Origin: Methanoregula sp.
Lineage (GTDB): Archaea; Halobacteriota; Methanomicrobia; Methanomicrobiales; Methanospirillaceae
NCBI RefSeq assembly: GCF_003170075.1
Contig: NZ_PMZU01000035.1
Span: forward strand, 26,096 to 66,393
Direction: 5' to 3'
Length of the DNA stretch: 40,298 bases
Shown: positions 3,642-34,613 of the stretch, in pieces
Layout of the letters: each line of letters starts with the position of its first letter
Numbering within the stretch: position 1 is the stretch's first letter
Made by a program: the position numbers and the translations under genes
The notes under the pieces: model-generated
Database searches by the model: none
The model's input: the letters and a program-made list of their open reading frames with translations, nothing else
Told to the model about the DNA's origin: nothing

Positions 3642-3848
3642 ATGATAAGGAACGCACAATTCACTGTTACTATGGACGAGAAAAAGATTGAGAAGGCATT
3701 TGCGGACGAGAAGATCGCAAAAACGATCACCTGCCCACAGGCATTCGCAATTGCAGAAAAACACAGGATCCCAAAAGCGGACATCAGCGAGTACTGCAAC
3801 ACCCACGGGATCAAGATCCATGCCTGCCAGCTGGGCTGCTTCAAATGA
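3642..3848 (+). CDS. Small conserved Cys-containing protein upstream of moeA
   Basis: 68 residues from ATG 3642, or 58 residues if translation begins at the second ATG (3672, MDEKKIEKAF), which gives the better-looking N-terminus. No strong ribosome binding site decides between them. The sequence looks helical: a Lys/Glu-rich first helix, TCPQAFAIAEKHRIPKADI resembling a small helix-turn-helix unit, then a C-terminal HGIKIHACQLGCFK with two Cys spaced CxxxC. I recall similar small uncharacterised proteins ending in CQLGxF in methanogens and anaerobic bacteria (from memory, not searched). It ends 9 bases before moeA, so co-transcription is likely and a link to molybdopterin metabolism or redox/metal sensing is possible, but function is unknown. 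Confidence 0.75.
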   Translation: MIRNAQFTVTMDEKKIEKAFADEKIAKTITCPQAFAIAEKHRIPKADISEYCNTHGIKIHACQLGCFK

Positions 3849-3857
3849 GCAGGTCAA

Positions 3858-5063
3858 ATGAGTCTTTTTTTATCCGTTGTCCCGGTGAGCGAGGCAGTCG
3901 CCACAGTGCACCGCCTTGCCGGGCTCGTGCCTCATGAGACGGTGCCCCTTGCCGAAGCATGCGGCCGGGTGCTGGCCGCTGACGTGCATGCGGACGTGGA
4001 TATCCCGGGATTTACCCGGTCGGTGATGGACGGGTACGCGGTGCGGGCTGCCGATACGACCGGCGCCGGCGATGCAGTGCCGGCGATGCTCACCCTCCGG
4101 GGCAGGATCCTGATGGGAAAAACCGCCGACCAGCCGGTAAAACCCGGGGAGTGCTGTTACATCCCGACAGGGGGTATCCTCCCGGAGGGAACCGACGCGG
4201 TCGTGATGGCGGAAAACACCGAGCCGTTCGGAGATAATATCCTCGTAAAAAAGCCGGTGGCGCACAATGAGAACGTGCTCCAGTACAATGAGGATTTTAA
4301 AAAGGGAGAGACCGTCCTCTCCCGCGGGCGCCGGCTCTCGGCGCAGGATGTGGGCATCCTCGCCGCGGTCGGGTGCGCAGATGTTCCGGTCACCCGCAAG
4401 CCGAAGATCGGCATCCTCTCTACCGGAAATGAACTGGTACCGGTCACCGAGATACCAAGGATCGGTCAGGTGCGGGACGTCAACAGTTACGTGATTGCCG
4501 CGTTCGTCCGCGACCACGGGTGCATCCCGGTAACGTACGGGATCGTCAGGGACGACCGGGCCACCTTTGAGGCGGCGCTTGCCCGGGCTGTCGGGGAATG
4601 CGACGCGGTGCTGATCTCGGGCGGGAGCTCAAAAGACGACCGTGACATGGCAGCAGCCGTCATCGCTCAACGGGGCGAAGTGCTGATCCACGGGGTCGCC
4701 ATTGCGCCGGGAAAACCCACAATCATCGGGCGGTGCGGAACCATCCCGGTCATCGGGCTGCCCGGCCACCCGGCTGCAACCTTTATCGTCATTGTCGTTA
4801 TCGTCAGGCATCTGCTTGATGACATGACCGGCAGTGCCGCGCCGGAACCGGTGACGGTGACGGCAAAACTTGCGATGAATGTACCGTCAACAAAGGGGCG
4901 GGAAGACTATATCCGGGTCTCTGTGAGGGACGGGATCGCAACCCCGCTCTTCGGGAAATCCGGCCTCTTAAATACGCTCGCAAAGAGCAACGGCGTGATC
5001 CGGATCCCGGCCGAAAGCGAGGGGATCGAGACCGGCCGGCAGGTAGAGATTATTCTCTGGTAA
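3858..5063 (+). CDS. moeA: Molybdopterin molybdenumtransferase MoeA
   Basis: 401 residues. MoeA inserts molybdate (or tungstate) into adenylylated molybdopterin, completing the molybdenum cofactor used here probably by formylmethanofuran dehydrogenase, formate dehydrogenase and the sulfite-oxidase-fold protein at 20.3 kb. Visible elements: N-terminal SVMDGYAVRAADT (about residue 54), PTGGILPEGTDAVVMAE in the middle, the MPT-binding domain with GILSTGNELV (about 186), SGGSSKDDRDMAAAVI (about 254) and IGLPGHPAATFIV (about 296), then the C-terminal beta domain (about 325-401). An upstream AGGT lies close to the ATG. It follows the 68-residue protein by 9 bases. Full family length, no anomalies. 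Confidence 0.96.
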   Translation: MSLFLSVVPVSEAVATVHRLAGLVPHETVPLAEACGRVLAADVHADVDIPGFTRSVMDGYAVRAADTTGAGDAVPAMLTLRGRILMGKTADQPVKPGECCYIPTGGILPEGTDAVVMAENTEPFGDNILVKKPVAHNENVLQYNEDFKKGETVLSRGRRLSAQDVGILAAVGCADVPVTRKPKIGILSTGNELVPVTEIPRIGQVRDVNSYVIAAFVRDHGCIPVTYGIVRDDRATFEAALARAVGECDAVLISGGSSKDDRDMAAAVIAQRGEVLIHGVAIAPGKPTIIGRCGTIPVIGLPGHPAATFIVIVVIVRHLLDDMTGSAAPEPVTVTAKLAMNVPSTKGREDYIRVSVRDGIATPLFGKSGLLNTLAKSNGVIRIPAESEGIETGRQVEIILW

Positions 5064-5081
5064 CTCTGTACTCCCGCATCC

Positions 5082-5087
5082 TTTTTT
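5082..5087 (+). terminator. Poly-T terminator after moeA
   Basis: A T6 run in AT-rich sequence about 20 bases after the moeA stop codon, consistent with archaeal intrinsic termination. Confidence 0.4.
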
Positions 5088-5303
5088 ATCACCGGTTCTT
5101 GCGTGTTTCACGGCCGGGATGGTTGCCGATACGATGCCGGCCACACGGGGGGCACCGGTTCCGGAAATCTGCCCGATCTGACCATTCGTCCACCATAGTT
5201 TAACCCCGGGGCTAGTACCGGGAAGGACTGCCCCATTGATCAAATTAAATAATTTATTTACTATGGAGAGCAAGAAACTGAATTAGTATAAGAGAGCCCA
5301 GGT

Positions 5304-6197
5304 ATGCCGCAAGCTATTGCTATCCTCTGCATCGATGATGACCCCCTGTTTCTGAATGCATTCAAGGCACGGCTCGAAAAGGAAACGGATCTTGCTGTCA
5401 CATCCGCATCGAATGCTGCCGAAGCACTTGATCTGCTCAACCGACAGTATTTCGATGTGATCATCTCTGATTACATAATGCCCGAGATGGACGGGCTCAC
5501 CCTGCTTAAAGAGATTCGCGAACGGGGCGGCCAGTCAATCTTTGTAGTAGCCACGGGAAAGAGACTCGCGCATATCGCAAAGGACGCCCTCAACACCGGG
5601 GCCGACTATTACCTGCAGAAAGGCACCGACATTGCAAACGAGGTCTCGCAGCTGCTCGATTTTGTCAGGACCCGGGTCCCGCAGAAGAATGCCGAGGACG
5701 AACTGGTCGCATGGGGCCGTTTCTACAATTCCATCGTGGACAATGGTCCGGAGCTCATCTGCCGGATCAAACCCGATGGCGCACTCAGCTTTGTAAATGA
5801 GCCCTGCGTCCACCTCCTTAAAAAACCCTACCAGCAGCTCGTGCAGGAGAATTTTTTTGCATATGTTCCCGACAGCGAACGCCCGGAGATCCTCACCTGT
5901 CTCCAGGCACTCTCTCCACAAAAGCCAGACTGCCTCCTCCTGCACAACGTTCTTGCAGGTGACGACAGACGAGTCCTTCTCGAATGGGGGTATCACGGGT
6001 TTTTCTCCGCACAGGGTGTGGTCCAGGAATACCAGCTCACGGGAAGGGACGCAGGCTCTCTCATCCGGATTGGCCGGCCGGATGTCGGAACAAAGCAAGA
6101 ACTGCCTTCTGCCGCAACCCGGATCTGGATCACTCAGCCCCACAGGACAGCCGGATTTTCGAGACGGAAAAGGGAGAGATCGAAAAGATCATACTGA
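5304..6197 (+). CDS. Response regulator receiver domain protein with PAS domain, C-terminus probably decayed
   Basis: 297 residues as read. A CheY-like receiver domain occupies residues 1-125: acidic pocket DDD at 11-13, phosphoacceptor Asp56 in SDYIMPEMDG, and the conserved Lys in YYLQKG near 108. A PAS domain follows (about 135-255: YNSIVDNGPELICRIKPDG to GVVQEYQLTGRD). Such receiver-PAS proteins are abundant in Methanomicrobiales and normally continue into further PAS or a histidine kinase domain. Here everything after about residue 258 turns into basic, Ser/Arg-rich sequence without a domain, which suggests a frameshift or truncation near 6075. The neighbouring frame from about 6135 to 6256 (containing FETEKGEIEKIILKKPVPL) looks more protein-like. 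No kinase or output partner is adjacent. An AT-rich promoter region lies at about 5238-5262. Confidence 0.8.
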   Translation: MPQAIAILCIDDDPLFLNAFKARLEKETDLAVTSASNAAEALDLLNRQYFDVIISDYIMPEMDGLTLLKEIRERGGQSIFVVATGKRLAHIAKDALNTGADYYLQKGTDIANEVSQLLDFVRTRVPQKNAEDELVAWGRFYNSIVDNGPELICRIKPDGALSFVNEPCVHLLKKPYQQLVQENFFAYVPDSERPEILTCLQALSPQKPDCLLLHNVLAGDDRRVLLEWGYHGFFSAQGVVQEYQLTGRDAGSLIRIGRPDVGTKQELPSAATRIWITQPHRTAGFSRRKRERSKRSY

Positions 6198-6287
6198 AAA
6201 AACCTGTGCCGCTCCCGGGATACGTGGAGATTATAAAGACGGGCGTACCGCCTTGAAGGGGTATATCGATCACAAGAAGGCGTTTAT

Positions 6288-6765
6288 CTACATCAAAACC
6301 CGATGAGAAGGTTTGCCCCAGACTTTGTCAGTTTCGAGTGCCAAGACAAAACAGTTCACCTTTTTCCTGCCCTTTCGGACGGACAGATCCGGGTACAAAA
6401 ATGCTGTGTTCTTTGTCTGCACGAAAAAAGTTCAGGCTCTGGCCAGCTTCACCGGTACCTGGTACACGGCATCACTGACACCCGATTCCTTGCGGTCATC
6501 GATATCGATGAAAAAGTGGCCTTTGTTCTTAATCGTCAGGGTGTTGCTCCGGGGTGATGTAATATCGATGAGTTTTACGAGAGGGACAATGCCCTCGTAG
6601 GTCCAGGTATTCTGCACGAAATCCCAGACTGATGTGATTGTCCCCGGGGTTTGTGTTGTTCAGTCACATCAAGCACGAAGGGGATCGGGGTAATCATTCC
6701 GGAACCGGGCGTGGTGACCCAGACTATGGCCCCGAATAAAAACCGGCTGGTACAAGAAAACTACT
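6288..6765 (-). pseudogene. Possible decayed secreted-protein gene (frameshift plus in-frame stop)
   Basis: On the minus strand three protein-like pieces line up: an upstream segment (about 6755-6660) reading VWVTTPGSGMITPIPFVLD, a second frame from about 6655 to 6435 reading TITSVWDFVQNTWTYEG and ending VYQVPVKLARA before a TGA at 6432-6434, and, in the same frame after that stop, TFFVQTKNTAFLYPDLSV to a TAG at 6288. The switch between the first two needs one frameshift near 6650. The pieces have the look of a beta-rich extracytoplasmic protein, but I recognise no family, and no start codon or signal peptide is present. It could also be chance open frame; the call is tentative. Confidence 0.3.
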
Positions 6766-30248: not shown

Positions 30249-30544
30249 CACCGTTCCTCTTTTTCAGGGTATTGCGGGAGTTCATGATGGCCAAAGCGAC
30301 GGTCGAAGATGCGTTCCTTCTCATCTGCAGGCATACCATTGCTAGTATCCTTTCAAGACGATACCAAGCACGGCAGTGTTGTTCCGCGTTGGCGGTTGGT
30401 TTTAAATGCTACCGTGGTGAAAAACAGGTTACCACCCGCAAACTAAAATCAGCACTCCTTATCGGATGTGTGTAGCATATTCTGGAATAGATTAATACCC
30501 TACAAAATTAAGCATTGAAGTGAAAATTTTTATTGAGGTGTGAT

Positions 30545-31216
30545 ATGGATCCTGTTTCAGTCAATCTGGCAAATCAATGGTATAGTATCATTATGACCTA
30601 TCTCCCCGGCATCATAGGTGCGCTTATTATCCTGCTTATCGGCTGGATAGTAGGCCGTCTCCTCGGCAAAGCGGTCCGGATCATTCTGGACAAAATTACC
30701 GCGATGCATGTGATCGAGGACACACACATCTCGGACACGTTTAAACGTGCCGGTGTAACGATCGGCTATCTTGGGGATATCGCCGTGCGGCTTATCGTTT
30801 ACCTGATCGCGATCCTTGCCGCGGTCGATGTCCTCCATATGGAGTTTACGAGTGCCCTGATGTCCACCATTGTCAGTTACATTCCCCATATCGTTGCGTT
30901 CATCATCCTTATCGTGGTTGGATTAATCCTTGTTGACTATTTCATCGATTTCTTAACAAATTACTATGGGGGCCGGGTCGAGTTCATTTCACCGGTACTG
31001 ATGTTACTCCGAATCTTCCTTTATTTCGTGGTTGCCATCCTTGCGCTCTCCCAACTCATGCTGGATCTCACGATCATCTATACGTTCGTCACGCCGATTG
31101 CATGGGGTATCGGCATTGGTCTTGGTGCGGCGATTGCGATCATTGTCGGCTTCGGCCTGAAAAACCGGAGTGAGGCCATCATGGACCGGTTGATCGATAC
31201 AATCGTAAAAAAGTGA
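30545..31216 (+). CDS. Small-conductance mechanosensitive channel-like TM-helix protein
   Basis: 223 residues from ATG 30545, which has GAGGTG four bases upstream. The protein carries the conserved transmembrane-helix repeat seen in MscS-related proteins: YLPGIIGALIILLIGWIVGRLLGKAVR near the N-terminus and its second copy around YIPHIVAFIILIVVGLILVDYF, with two further helices before GLGAAIAIIVGFGLKNRSEAIM. The usual MscS cytoplasmic beta domain is missing, so it may be an accessory or truncated relative rather than a complete channel. A genuine MscS gene lies on the opposite strand 2.7 kb away. An AT-rich promoter zone lies at about 30478-30530. Confidence 0.85.
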   Translation: MDPVSVNLANQWYSIIMTYLPGIIGALIILLIGWIVGRLLGKAVRIILDKITAMHVIEDTHISDTFKRAGVTIGYLGDIAVRLIVYLIAILAAVDVLHMEFTSALMSTIVSYIPHIVAFIILIVVGLILVDYFIDFLTNYYGGRVEFISPVLMLLRIFLYFVVAILALSQLMLDLTIIYTFVTPIAWGIGIGLGAAIAIIVGFGLKNRSEAIMDRLIDTIVKK

Positions 31217-31594: not shown

Positions 31595-33118
31595 TTACAC
31601 CAGCATGAACGTGAAGAAATAAAACGCAATCAGCGGAATGAACAGCACGAGAAACAGGGGGCGGTTCCATTTCCAGATCGCACTGCCGTCCATCGTGGAA
31701 ATGGGTATCAGGCTGTAGACTGCAGTGATGAGGTTAATGGTAAATCCCAGACCACCGGCGATTGCCCAGACCCCTCCAAATTGAACCATGAACAGGAAGA
31801 CCAGCATGAGGATGATACTGATAACAGGTCCCGCAACCATCTCAATTCCCAGCTCGCGTGTCTCATCCGCATTCTCATCCCGTTCCACGATATTCCGGTA
31901 GGACTGGGCAAAGGCATTCCCGTAGAGCCAGGCCGTCAGAAACATGATAACCGTGCCAAGGCCCCAGAACTGGATATCGGTGTCGTGGCCGTACCGGTTT
32001 GCAAAATACCTGTGGGCAGAATCGTGAAGTATGACCGAGAACGCACCGACCAGTATGTAGATGAGCACCATCTGCAGGGTAAGGGCAGCGCGATCCGCGA
32101 GCAGGAATGCCACTGCCACCATAATGACGGCTGCCTCAACGACAAGGAGTTCCGTCGCTGACAGGCCGAAGAAGTGCCGCTCCCGTTTCTTTGCTTCGAT
32201 TCCCCGGGCCTCGATTTCTTTCTCGCTGATCTTTTCGACTGCATGACCCCCGGCAAGATCGGCTAAGAACTTGGCAAATTTTGCACCGAACTGGGCGATA
32301 GTGCTGATATTGGCGAGGAGGAACTGGACAAATATCACGCCAAAACTCGTCAGCACCGCAGCGAGGGCCATGAACTGCGGGGGGATAAATGCTGCAGTGG
32401 GGAGGTTCTTGTCGGTGGTGCCCTTCGCATCCTGGATCAGGCCGACGATTCCTGTAGCATGGGCCTTGACCAGGGTAACCGGCGTGGGCACCGGAACCGG
32501 GGCCGGACGACTTGCATTGATGTAATGTGTCCGGACGAGCGCGTCGCTGCCGAAGTGGCTGCTCACTTTTAACCTGACATCATAGATGCCTGCCAGCGTA
32601 TAGGTATGAACCGGATTCTGGTCCGATGAGGTTGTCCCGTCACCGAAGTCCCACTTCCAGTCAGTGGGCGTGTTCTTTGAAAGATCAGTAAATGTAACCG
32701 TGAGCGGAATAGTCCCATCGGCTGGTGAGGCAGAAAAGTTTGTTTCTGGCGGGAAGCCCGCCCCGATGAAATCAGCAACAGTCTTGGTATCCGAGCCGTA
32801 CTGGTTGGTCACGGTCAGGCTGACAGTGTATTCTCCGTTATAATGATAGGTATGCGTCGGGTTCTGCATTGCCGAGCTTGCGCCGTCGCCAAACTCCCAC
32901 AGATAGGTCATTGGCAGAGAGCCCCGGGATGTATCAGCGAAACTGACCGTAAACGGGGACGGACCGTACTGGACACTGGTGTAAAAATCGGCAACCGGCG
33001 GGTTAATTACCGAGATGTAACCACTCCCGTTACCTGCTGATGTATCCGCGGCAACGCTGACTGGCAGGAGCGCTGTACAGAGCAAGGCGACAAGCAGGAT
33101 AGGTGTGAGGTATTTCAT
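31595..33118 (-). CDS. PKD-domain surface protein fused to an M50-like membrane protease domain
   Basis: 507 residues from ATG 33118 (MKYLTPILLV), with AGGGA upstream. A signal peptide (1-23) is followed by two PKD domains (about 38-115 and 122-200; WEFGDG and WKWDFGDG hallmarks) outside the cell, then a helical hydrophobic region beginning about 245. The C-terminal part from about 320 has the architecture of site-2 proteases: HDSAHRYFANRYGHD at 365-379, in the place of HExxH, and YSLIPISTMDGSAIW (Asp477) in the place of NxxPxxxxDG. Asp replaces the catalytic Glu, so it may be an inactive or altered homologue. The combination of extracellular PKD domains and a protease-like membrane core is unusual. 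Confidence 0.85.
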   Translation of the reverse strand: MKYLTPILLVALLCTALLPVSVAADTSAGNGSGYISVINPPVADFYTSVQYGPSPFTVSFADTSRGSLPMTYLWEFGDGASSAMQNPTHTYHYNGEYTVSLTVTNQYGSDTKTVADFIGAGFPPETNFSASPADGTIPLTVTFTDLSKNTPTDWKWDFGDGTTSSDQNPVHTYTLAGIYDVRLKVSSHFGSDALVRTHYINASRPAPVPVPTPVTLVKAHATGIVGLIQDAKGTTDKNLPTAAFIPPQFMALAAVLTSFGVIFVQFLLANISTIAQFGAKFAKFLADLAGGHAVEKISEKEIEARGIEAKKRERHFFGLSATELLVVEAAVIMVAVAFLLADRAALTLQMVLIYILVGAFSVILHDSAHRYFANRYGHDTDIQFWGLGTVIMFLTAWLYGNAFAQSYRNIVERDENADETRELGIEMVAGPVISIILMLVFLFMVQFGGVWAIAGGLGFTINLITAVYSLIPISTMDGSAIWKWNRPLFLVLFIPLIAFYFFTFMLV

Positions 33119-33248
33119 AGTTTCCCTGATCCACAGAATCCCGGGCATTTGTGCATAGGAAACTGTTCCGGATATTCACACTGGTTTTCCTTCTGGCATC
33201 TTAAAGAAATTGGTTGGAAAAACGAGGGAATACGCTTGAGGCCTTTAT

Positions 33249-34253
33249 TTAGCAAAAGGGAATCTCTTCTTTCCGGAACCGCTCGATGATCCGGACGTTC
33301 ATGTAGTCCTGAATAATGTTGTCATACTGGAAGCCGGCTGCATAGACCGTGATCAGGAATGTGATTGTGGACTTGTCCATCTGCATGAGGTATACTGTCG
33401 GGGATGGATCGTGAGCAAACAAGTCTGGCCGGCTCTTTACCGCCTCATCGCAAATCTCTCCAAGCACCCTCTTGATACGAGTAATATCTTCAGAATTTGA
33501 GACCGTTACCGGGATCTGGATCCTGACCTGCGGGTTTGGCAGGGAATAGTTATGAACCACGCTTGTTGCTATCTTGGTGTTGGGGATGCTCACGACATCT
33601 TTATCGAGCGTGAGGAGACGGGTGCTCCGGGGACCGATATGGGTCACGTCCCCGAGAACATCGTTAATCAGCACCCGGTCCCCCACTTTGAACGGCTGGT
33701 CGGTGATGATGACCGCACCGCCAAAGAAGTTCGAGAAGAGATCCTGTGCAGCAAGGGCAATGGCAATGCCGACGACTCCTGCACCGGCAATGAGCGGTGT
33801 AATATTGACACTGTACAGGGTCAGGATATAGAGGATCCCGATAAACCAGATGAAGTACTTCCCGATCTTCTGGAGGATCTCCACGATCCGGTCATCGAGG
33901 TCGGTCTCGGTCGTCTCGGCAAGGGCAGTACCGTAGATCCGCAGAAAATCGTCAAGGAATGTTGCAACAATCCATGTTCCGACGATGACATATGCCGATA
34001 AAAGGATGTTTGCATCAGCAATCCACTGGTATTCGGGATAGAGATCAATCAGGTGATGGATCGCAAAGAAAAACGGGATGAAGAACGCGAGTATCGTAAG
34101 CGGTGCGCCAAGTGAGTGCACAATAAGATCATCCATCATTGTCTCTGTCTTCTCTGCCTGCTTCTTGAGGAAGATGAAGACAAAATGGACAACAACAGCG
34201 GCAATAATCCCTGCCGCAAGGAACAAGATCGTATCTACAATTGCCGGGTCCAT
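33249..34253 (-). CDS. mscS: Mechanosensitive ion channel MscS
   Basis: About 334 residues from ATG 34253 (MDPAIVDTILFLAAG); an alternative ATG at 34271 adds six residues, and neither has a clean ribosome binding site. Four or five transmembrane helices precede the pore helix with the conserved GVVGIAIALAAQDLFSNFFGG (about 178-198). The MscS beta domain follows, with VGDRVLINDVLGDVTHIGPRSTRL, then VSIPNTKIATSVVHNYS. It opens under membrane tension to release solutes in hypo-osmotic shock. The protein is standard length for archaeal MscS. Same strand as the PKD/M50-like gene, with a 130-base gap. Confidence 0.95.
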   Translation of the reverse strand: MDPAIVDTILFLAAGIIAAVVVHFVFIFLKKQAEKTETMMDDLIVHSLGAPLTILAFFIPFFFAIHHLIDLYPEYQWIADANILLSAYVIVGTWIVATFLDDFLRIYGTALAETTETDLDDRIVEILQKIGKYFIWFIGILYILTLYSVNITPLIAGAGVVGIAIALAAQDLFSNFFGGAVIITDQPFKVGDRVLINDVLGDVTHIGPRSTRLLTLDKDVVSIPNTKIATSVVHNYSLPNPQVRIQIPVTVSNSEDITRIKRVLGEICDEAVKSRPDLFAHDPSPTVYLMQMDKSTITFLITVYAAGFQYDNIIQDYMNVRIIERFRKEEIPFC

Positions 34254-34539: not shown

Positions 34540-34613
34540 GGCCAGGGCCGAGATTTGAACCCGGGTCGAGGGATCCACAGCCCCTTAGGATAACCAGACT
34601 ACCCTACCCTGGC
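34540..34613 (-). tRNA. tRNA-His (anticodon GTG), G-1 not encoded
   Basis: Minus-strand cloverleaf. Acceptor GCCAGGG (34613-34607) pairs with CCCTGGC (34547-34541); discriminator C73 is at 34540, no encoded CCA. Anticodon stem AGGGG/TCCCT with loop CTGTGGA gives anticodon GTG; T arm CCGGG-TTCAAAT-CTCGG. The base at -1 in the genome is T, not G, so the extra G-1 essential for histidylation must be added post-transcriptionally, consistent with the Thg1 gene at 11.96 kb. A TTAAATTAAT element about 35 bases upstream (34646-34655) fits as TATA. Confidence 0.95.

Follow-up and report, generated by a model that had tools for sequence, protein, structure and literature searches.

A PKD-domain homologue of site-2 proteases with a conserved HDxxH motif, encoded beside mechanosensitive channel genes in Methanoregula

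Archaeal site-2 proteases (S2Ps) of the MJ0392 type (3b4r, from M. jannaschii) have a membrane core in which one helix bears motif 1 and a later one the Asp that provides the third metal ligand, together with a GP segment. An intramembrane metal site is likewise found in SpoIVFB and in RseP, the latter acting in the envelope stress response, and each depends on a glutamate, E44 and E23, respectively: S2P activity is abolished in SpoIVFB E44Q (PMC11486902) and in RseP E23Q (PMC7728848). EGY3, an S2P homologue of plant chloroplasts, is thought to be inactive and is linked to stress (PMC9355673). The Synechocystis S2P Sll0528 is required for salt and hyperosmotic acclimation and is proteolytic as a recombinant protein; its abstract mentions neither PKD domains nor mechanosensitive channel (Msc) neighbours (PMC4284730). 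PKD domains, including one of a Methanosarcina mazei surface-layer protein, are unusually force-resistant (PMC2862302); those of polycystin-1 and of this M. mazei protein are force-resistant folds in surface proteins that are not known to be fused to an S2P core.

Such a fusion is predicted in the window analysed here, a 40,298-nucleotide stretch of DNA from Methanoregula sp. (contig NZ_PMZU01000035.1), in a gene on the minus strand at 31595..33118. Translation of this open reading frame gives 507 aa with no internal stops, and the residue numbering of an earlier first-pass annotation, with H365, D366, H369 and, in SLIPISTMDG, D477, is correct. A predicted signal peptide (residues ~1-23; 33050..33118, minus strand, as are all features of the gene) coincides with a hydrophobic segment at 6-24 and with an AlphaFold helix of low confidence at 4-16. 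Pfam recognises the two PKD domains that had been claimed (residues ~41-194; 32537..32998; PF18911, E 7.8e-35, and PF00801, E 2.5e-24). By hydropathy, a first membrane helix (residues ~251-268; 32315..32368) then leads from the ectodomain into a charged, probably cytoplasmic linker, which is followed by a multi-helix C-terminal core. PKD repeats behind a signal-peptide-like N terminus are as expected of an exported PKD-domain surface protein, and the signal peptide and hydropathy together indicate that the PKD part probably lies outside the cell. The ATG at 33118 is favoured as start codon over an upstream ATG at 33148, because it is the position at which the orthologues begin and is preceded, ~85 nt upstream, by a conserved box resembling a promoter. 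The closest named relative, from a Methanoregula metagenome-assembled genome, is 75% identical across the core.

The core had been described as M50- or S2P-like, and profile comparison bears this out. A search with the single protein gives a weak match to Peptidase_M50 (PF02163, residues 356-445, E 6.2e-5, 22.9 bits with a cut-off of 27.2 bits), and six of seven family members match the same model. Alignment of the family profile to canonical archaeal S2Ps by hhalign gives a probability of 99.5% (E 2.6e-22), with HD placed over HE and DG over DG, and an hmmsearch of the PDB with the family profile ranks MJ0392 first (E 9.3e-4) with an identical register. Both alignments pair D366 with the catalytic Glu and D477 with the third zinc ligand. 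Because of these alignments to the canonical enzymes and to 3b4r, homology of the membrane core to S2P can be regarded as firm despite the single-protein Pfam score. Hydropathy places HDSAH where a membrane helix ends, and the direction of that helix would be compatible with that of an S2P, whose motif 1 is expected inside the membrane and close to the cytoplasmic face, if the PKD part is outside. The topology and site geometry given here are predicted from alignment and hydropathy; an AlphaFold model from a shallow alignment of two sequences (the window protein and L039) has a pLDDT of 40-45, its PKD region being beta-rich with a block reaching 82. NCBIfam yielded no informative family for the protein, and a scan of viral contigs found no relatives of it.

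The motifs themselves are as first reported. The HExxH of active M50 proteases, with its catalytic Glu, is replaced by HDSAH at residues 365-369 (32012..32026), D366 taking the place of the Glu. An AGPVI segment (residues 429-433; 31820..31834) corresponds to the GP segment, and the second zinc-ligand motif, (N)xxPxxxDG, is retained in ISTMDG (residues 473-478; 31685..31702) as D477-G478, with Ser for Asn. Thus the protein shares the arrangement of MJ0392 but differs from it in having HDxxH rather than HExxH, in the Asn-to-Ser change, in its large PKD ectodomain and extra N-terminal membrane helix, and in its sub-cut-off M50 score. The intramembrane metal site predicted here is a feature in common with SpoIVFB and RseP, and the role proposed below is likened to that of RseP; unlike these enzymes, however, the window protein has Asp at the required Glu, a PKD rather than a PDZ ectodomain, and no CBS domain.

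To what extent HDxxH is conserved was determined among proteins within the host's phylum. Of 39 genomes searched in the genus, 20 contain orthologues, as do two from a second genus in the same family; these 22 proteins are 63-77% identical, and all of them have HD[F/L/S]xHR together with TMDG. A second HD subfamily, HD-B, comprises four proteins (L030, L031, L040, L041) that are ~36% identical and have HDLxHK with PNDG. Seven further HD proteins belong to f14, a distant archaeal family of the same phylum (G248, G257, G266), and six of these have the full ligand set. Random substitution at the HD pair was therefore not seen: both residues are kept in 33/33 HD-family proteins (22 + 4 + 7), which rules out a chance change in one genome, and the complete H/H/D metal-ligand set, the Asp of motif 2 included, is kept in 32/33. 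Only 24 of 236 columns are conserved in all or all but one of these 33 proteins from two archaeal groups, and among them are H365, D366, H369, D477, G478, and G430-P431 of the AGPVI segment, the last two invariant in 33/33. Each Asp is encoded by GAT in some proteins and by GAC in others, and the two His codons likewise both appear at each His; as the residues are fixed while synonymous codons vary, conservation is at the protein level.

HExxH is present in every canonical short archaeal S2P that was examined, one from the host genome (L059) among them, and the wider family of S2Ps with ectodomains also contains HExxH members with CDG. In trees built without the motif columns, in which several branches are long, the HD proteins fall into two to four groups, and grouping all HD proteins in one clade is weakly rejected (AU p 0.028 and 0.046). 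From these sequences, repeated origin of HD and a single origin with reversal are equally short and cannot be told apart. Elsewhere in the family, two proteins (L042, L044) have an intact HELAH with Glu as third ligand (PCEG/CEG), a further type of acidic replacement within the metal site. One f14 locus (L154, G266:C172) has a tandem pair of HD proteins, and its genome has four strong HD copies in all, with ORFs of 456 to 699 aa.

Several of the relatives lacking one ligand lack others as well. Multiple losses are found in proteins with HDLVS and K, with CDLAR and A, and with PKxxQ, the last in a clade (L050, L051, L057, L062) in which a PKxxQ-like sequence replaces HExxH and MEG mostly replaces MDG; the members of this clade are apparently full pseudoproteases. 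Retention of the whole H/D/H...D set in the HD proteins, set beside several relatives that have lost the other ligands along with the first, argues for a working metal site. Binding of metal by the core is strongly indicated by these comparisons, and the site is quite probably real.

Whether a peptide bond would be cut at such a site is a separate matter. Asp is one methylene shorter than Glu, and in other zinc peptidases Glu-to-Asp changes usually cost most of the activity. D366 may thus inactivate the protein, leaving an S2P fold that binds membrane segments as a scaffold or chaperone and controls the folding, turnover or placement of channels or surface proteins; for the rhomboids, iRhoms are the inactive scaffold analogue. 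This would agree with the loss of S2P activity on E-to-Q change at the equivalent residue of SpoIVFB and RseP, with the existence of clear pseudoproteases in the PKxxQ clade, with the Ser in place of Asn, and with the presence in the host genome of a canonical HExxH S2P able to do the ordinary cleavage. It would also resemble what is proposed for EGY3, except that the HD family, unlike that chloroplast protein, retains the metal ligands and the carboxylate: H365, H369 and D477 are conserved, whereas an S2P pseudoprotease of the EGY3 kind would be expected to have lost its metal-binding residues, as the PKxxQ clade has. A scaffold free of chemistry should need no joint H, D, H and D, yet these are kept in nearly every HD protein, while in the clearly dead clade motif 1 has changed and, in most members, so has the third ligand. 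Nor is loss of the Asn specific to HD, since the HE members of the family lack it as well. A scaffold without catalysis is a possible, tentative explanation.

The same conservation can be taken the other way, with Asp acting as general base around a repositioned metal or water in an active intramembrane protease that carries out regulated intramembrane proteolysis of a membrane-tethered regulator. The full, invariant set of carboxylate and metal ligands favours such activity, as does the persistence of HD in two or more strongly diverged lineages; the AU values fit repeated origin or repeated loss. The shorter side chain of Asp is nevertheless expected to be a poor base, a literature search found no HDxxH peptidase, and a likely substrate, for instance an anti-sigma-like protein, is not evident among the conserved neighbours. 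Protease activity of this kind is possible but short of probable. Given the inactivity of the E-to-Q mutants and the shorter Asp, the evidence on cleavage is mixed, and peptide cleavage of any kind by the protein is somewhat doubtful.

The genomic setting points to a stress function. The gene had been placed between two mechanosensitive-type channels, of which one is genuine: an MscS-type channel of 334 aa lies directly upstream on the same strand (33249..34253, minus strand; PF00924, E 2.7e-20). The other, a plus-strand gene at 30533-31216 that is convergent to the PKD-S2P gene, is matched by PF05552 TM-helix repeats alone and lacks the beta domain of MscS; for this reason, and because it is near none of the other orthologues, it was rejected as part of any module.

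Using MscS and MscL proteins from the orthologous loci as queries, the context of 20 such loci was compared, two further loci being cut by contig ends. In 18 of the 20, the gene is directly preceded on its own strand by MscS, MscL or both, a figure that describes an inherited association among related loci and not 18 independent events. MscS occurs alone in seven (the window included), MscL alone in six and both in five, so that MscS is found at the window and 11 other loci; the MscL assignments were confirmed by Pfam (E 2e-20 to 4e-24). No Msc neighbour is present in any of 13 related, non-orthologous loci (HD-B, HE and f14; Fisher p 1.8e-7 against 18/20), one of which, L169, has little upstream sequence. 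In total, just three MscS and one MscL are encoded in the host genome. The Msc neighbour is retained while other neighbours in the window differ among orthologous loci, IF2, a YdjM-like gene, a lipoprotein and the 30533-31216 gene being absent from the others. HD itself is not tied to Msc, as HD-B and f14 are without such a neighbour; and since two orthologous loci (L091, L164) lack one, adjacency is not required. The suggestion of an envelope-stress context is strengthened by the 18 loci with a mechanosensitive channel gene. Among the titles listed in a literature search, none described Msc channels linked with an S2P or other protease, and to our knowledge there has been little work on the regulation of mechanosensitive channels in archaea.

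The linkage could, however, be functionally meaningless, the protein serving more generally in surface-layer assembly or in adhesion as a member of a set of paralogues that carry various outer domains. The family is indeed expanded, with 3-5 matches in some genomes and varied ectodomains, and PKD domains are common among surface proteins of the host genome. The gene may also be expressed independently: a TTTAAG at 33200..33205 (minus strand), ~85 nt upstream of the start codon, belongs to a recurrent promoter-like box (CCAATTTCTTTA[A/T]G), and about half of the orthologous loci, or more, have a similar box between ~-79 and -93, which suggests that the PKD-S2P gene has its own promoter. Co-transcription with the channel is then not necessary, and the case for a strict Msc and S2P operon is weakened. 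An Rfam search found no leader element. A role unconnected with the channels is nonetheless unlikely, as two unrelated channel families swap at one position while the other neighbours have changed.

The best explanation, held with a probability of roughly 0.5, is that the protein is a PKD-bearing HDxxH variant of the S2Ps that works with MscS or MscL when the envelope is under tension or the cell meets an osmotic downshift. Involvement in mechanical or osmotic stress is the best-supported reading: the gene linkage argues for it, and the force resistance of PKD domains and the need for an S2P in the salt acclimation of Synechocystis agree with it. The association of PKD-S2P with Msc suggests a conserved archaeal device against such stress at the cell surface. 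The protein would be anchored in the surface layer through its PKD domains, and strain, or a ligand at the surface, would alter how accessible the intramembrane metal site is. A single-span membrane partner would then be bound, and perhaps slowly cleaved, by the core, and channel level or assembly would be tuned, or a signal released. Of these steps, substrate binding or cleavage is weakly suggested, and force sensing, like the identity of the partner, is speculative. In its strongest form, an archaeal mechanosensor-protease in which surface-layer tension borne by PKD gates an Asp-based intramembrane metal site, where a partner in control of the MscS and MscL channels is processed or held, the proposal is improbable; if true, it would represent peptidase chemistry and a stress pathway of a previously undescribed kind.

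What is new is a variant of the S2P superfamily with an unexpected conserved link to mechanosensitive channels. If the preferred reading is right, the family offers a natural, long-conserved Glu-to-Asp S2P site with its ligands intact, in which the ability of Asp to act as a base is put to the test, as well as a candidate partner of archaeal mechanosensitive channels. The exchange of MscS and MscL at one locus makes a functional tie to tension relief testable by simple genetics.

Other genes recur or stand out near members of the family. Response-regulator or PAS proteins are encoded within two genes of PKD-S2P at L080, L084, L087, L092, L094, L096, L097 and L098 (one verified by Pfam), and genes for a cation P-type ATPase and a DedA protein (VTT domain) recur downstream at L085, L086 and L091 (one of each verified by Pfam). 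At L168, directly upstream of an HD-B gene, lies a gene for an 889-aa membrane protein (3768-6434, plus strand), the N-terminal start of which looks, by eye, like an oligosaccharyltransferase (AglB/STT3). In the window, a tRNA gene (34540-34613, minus strand) is located between MscS and IF2.
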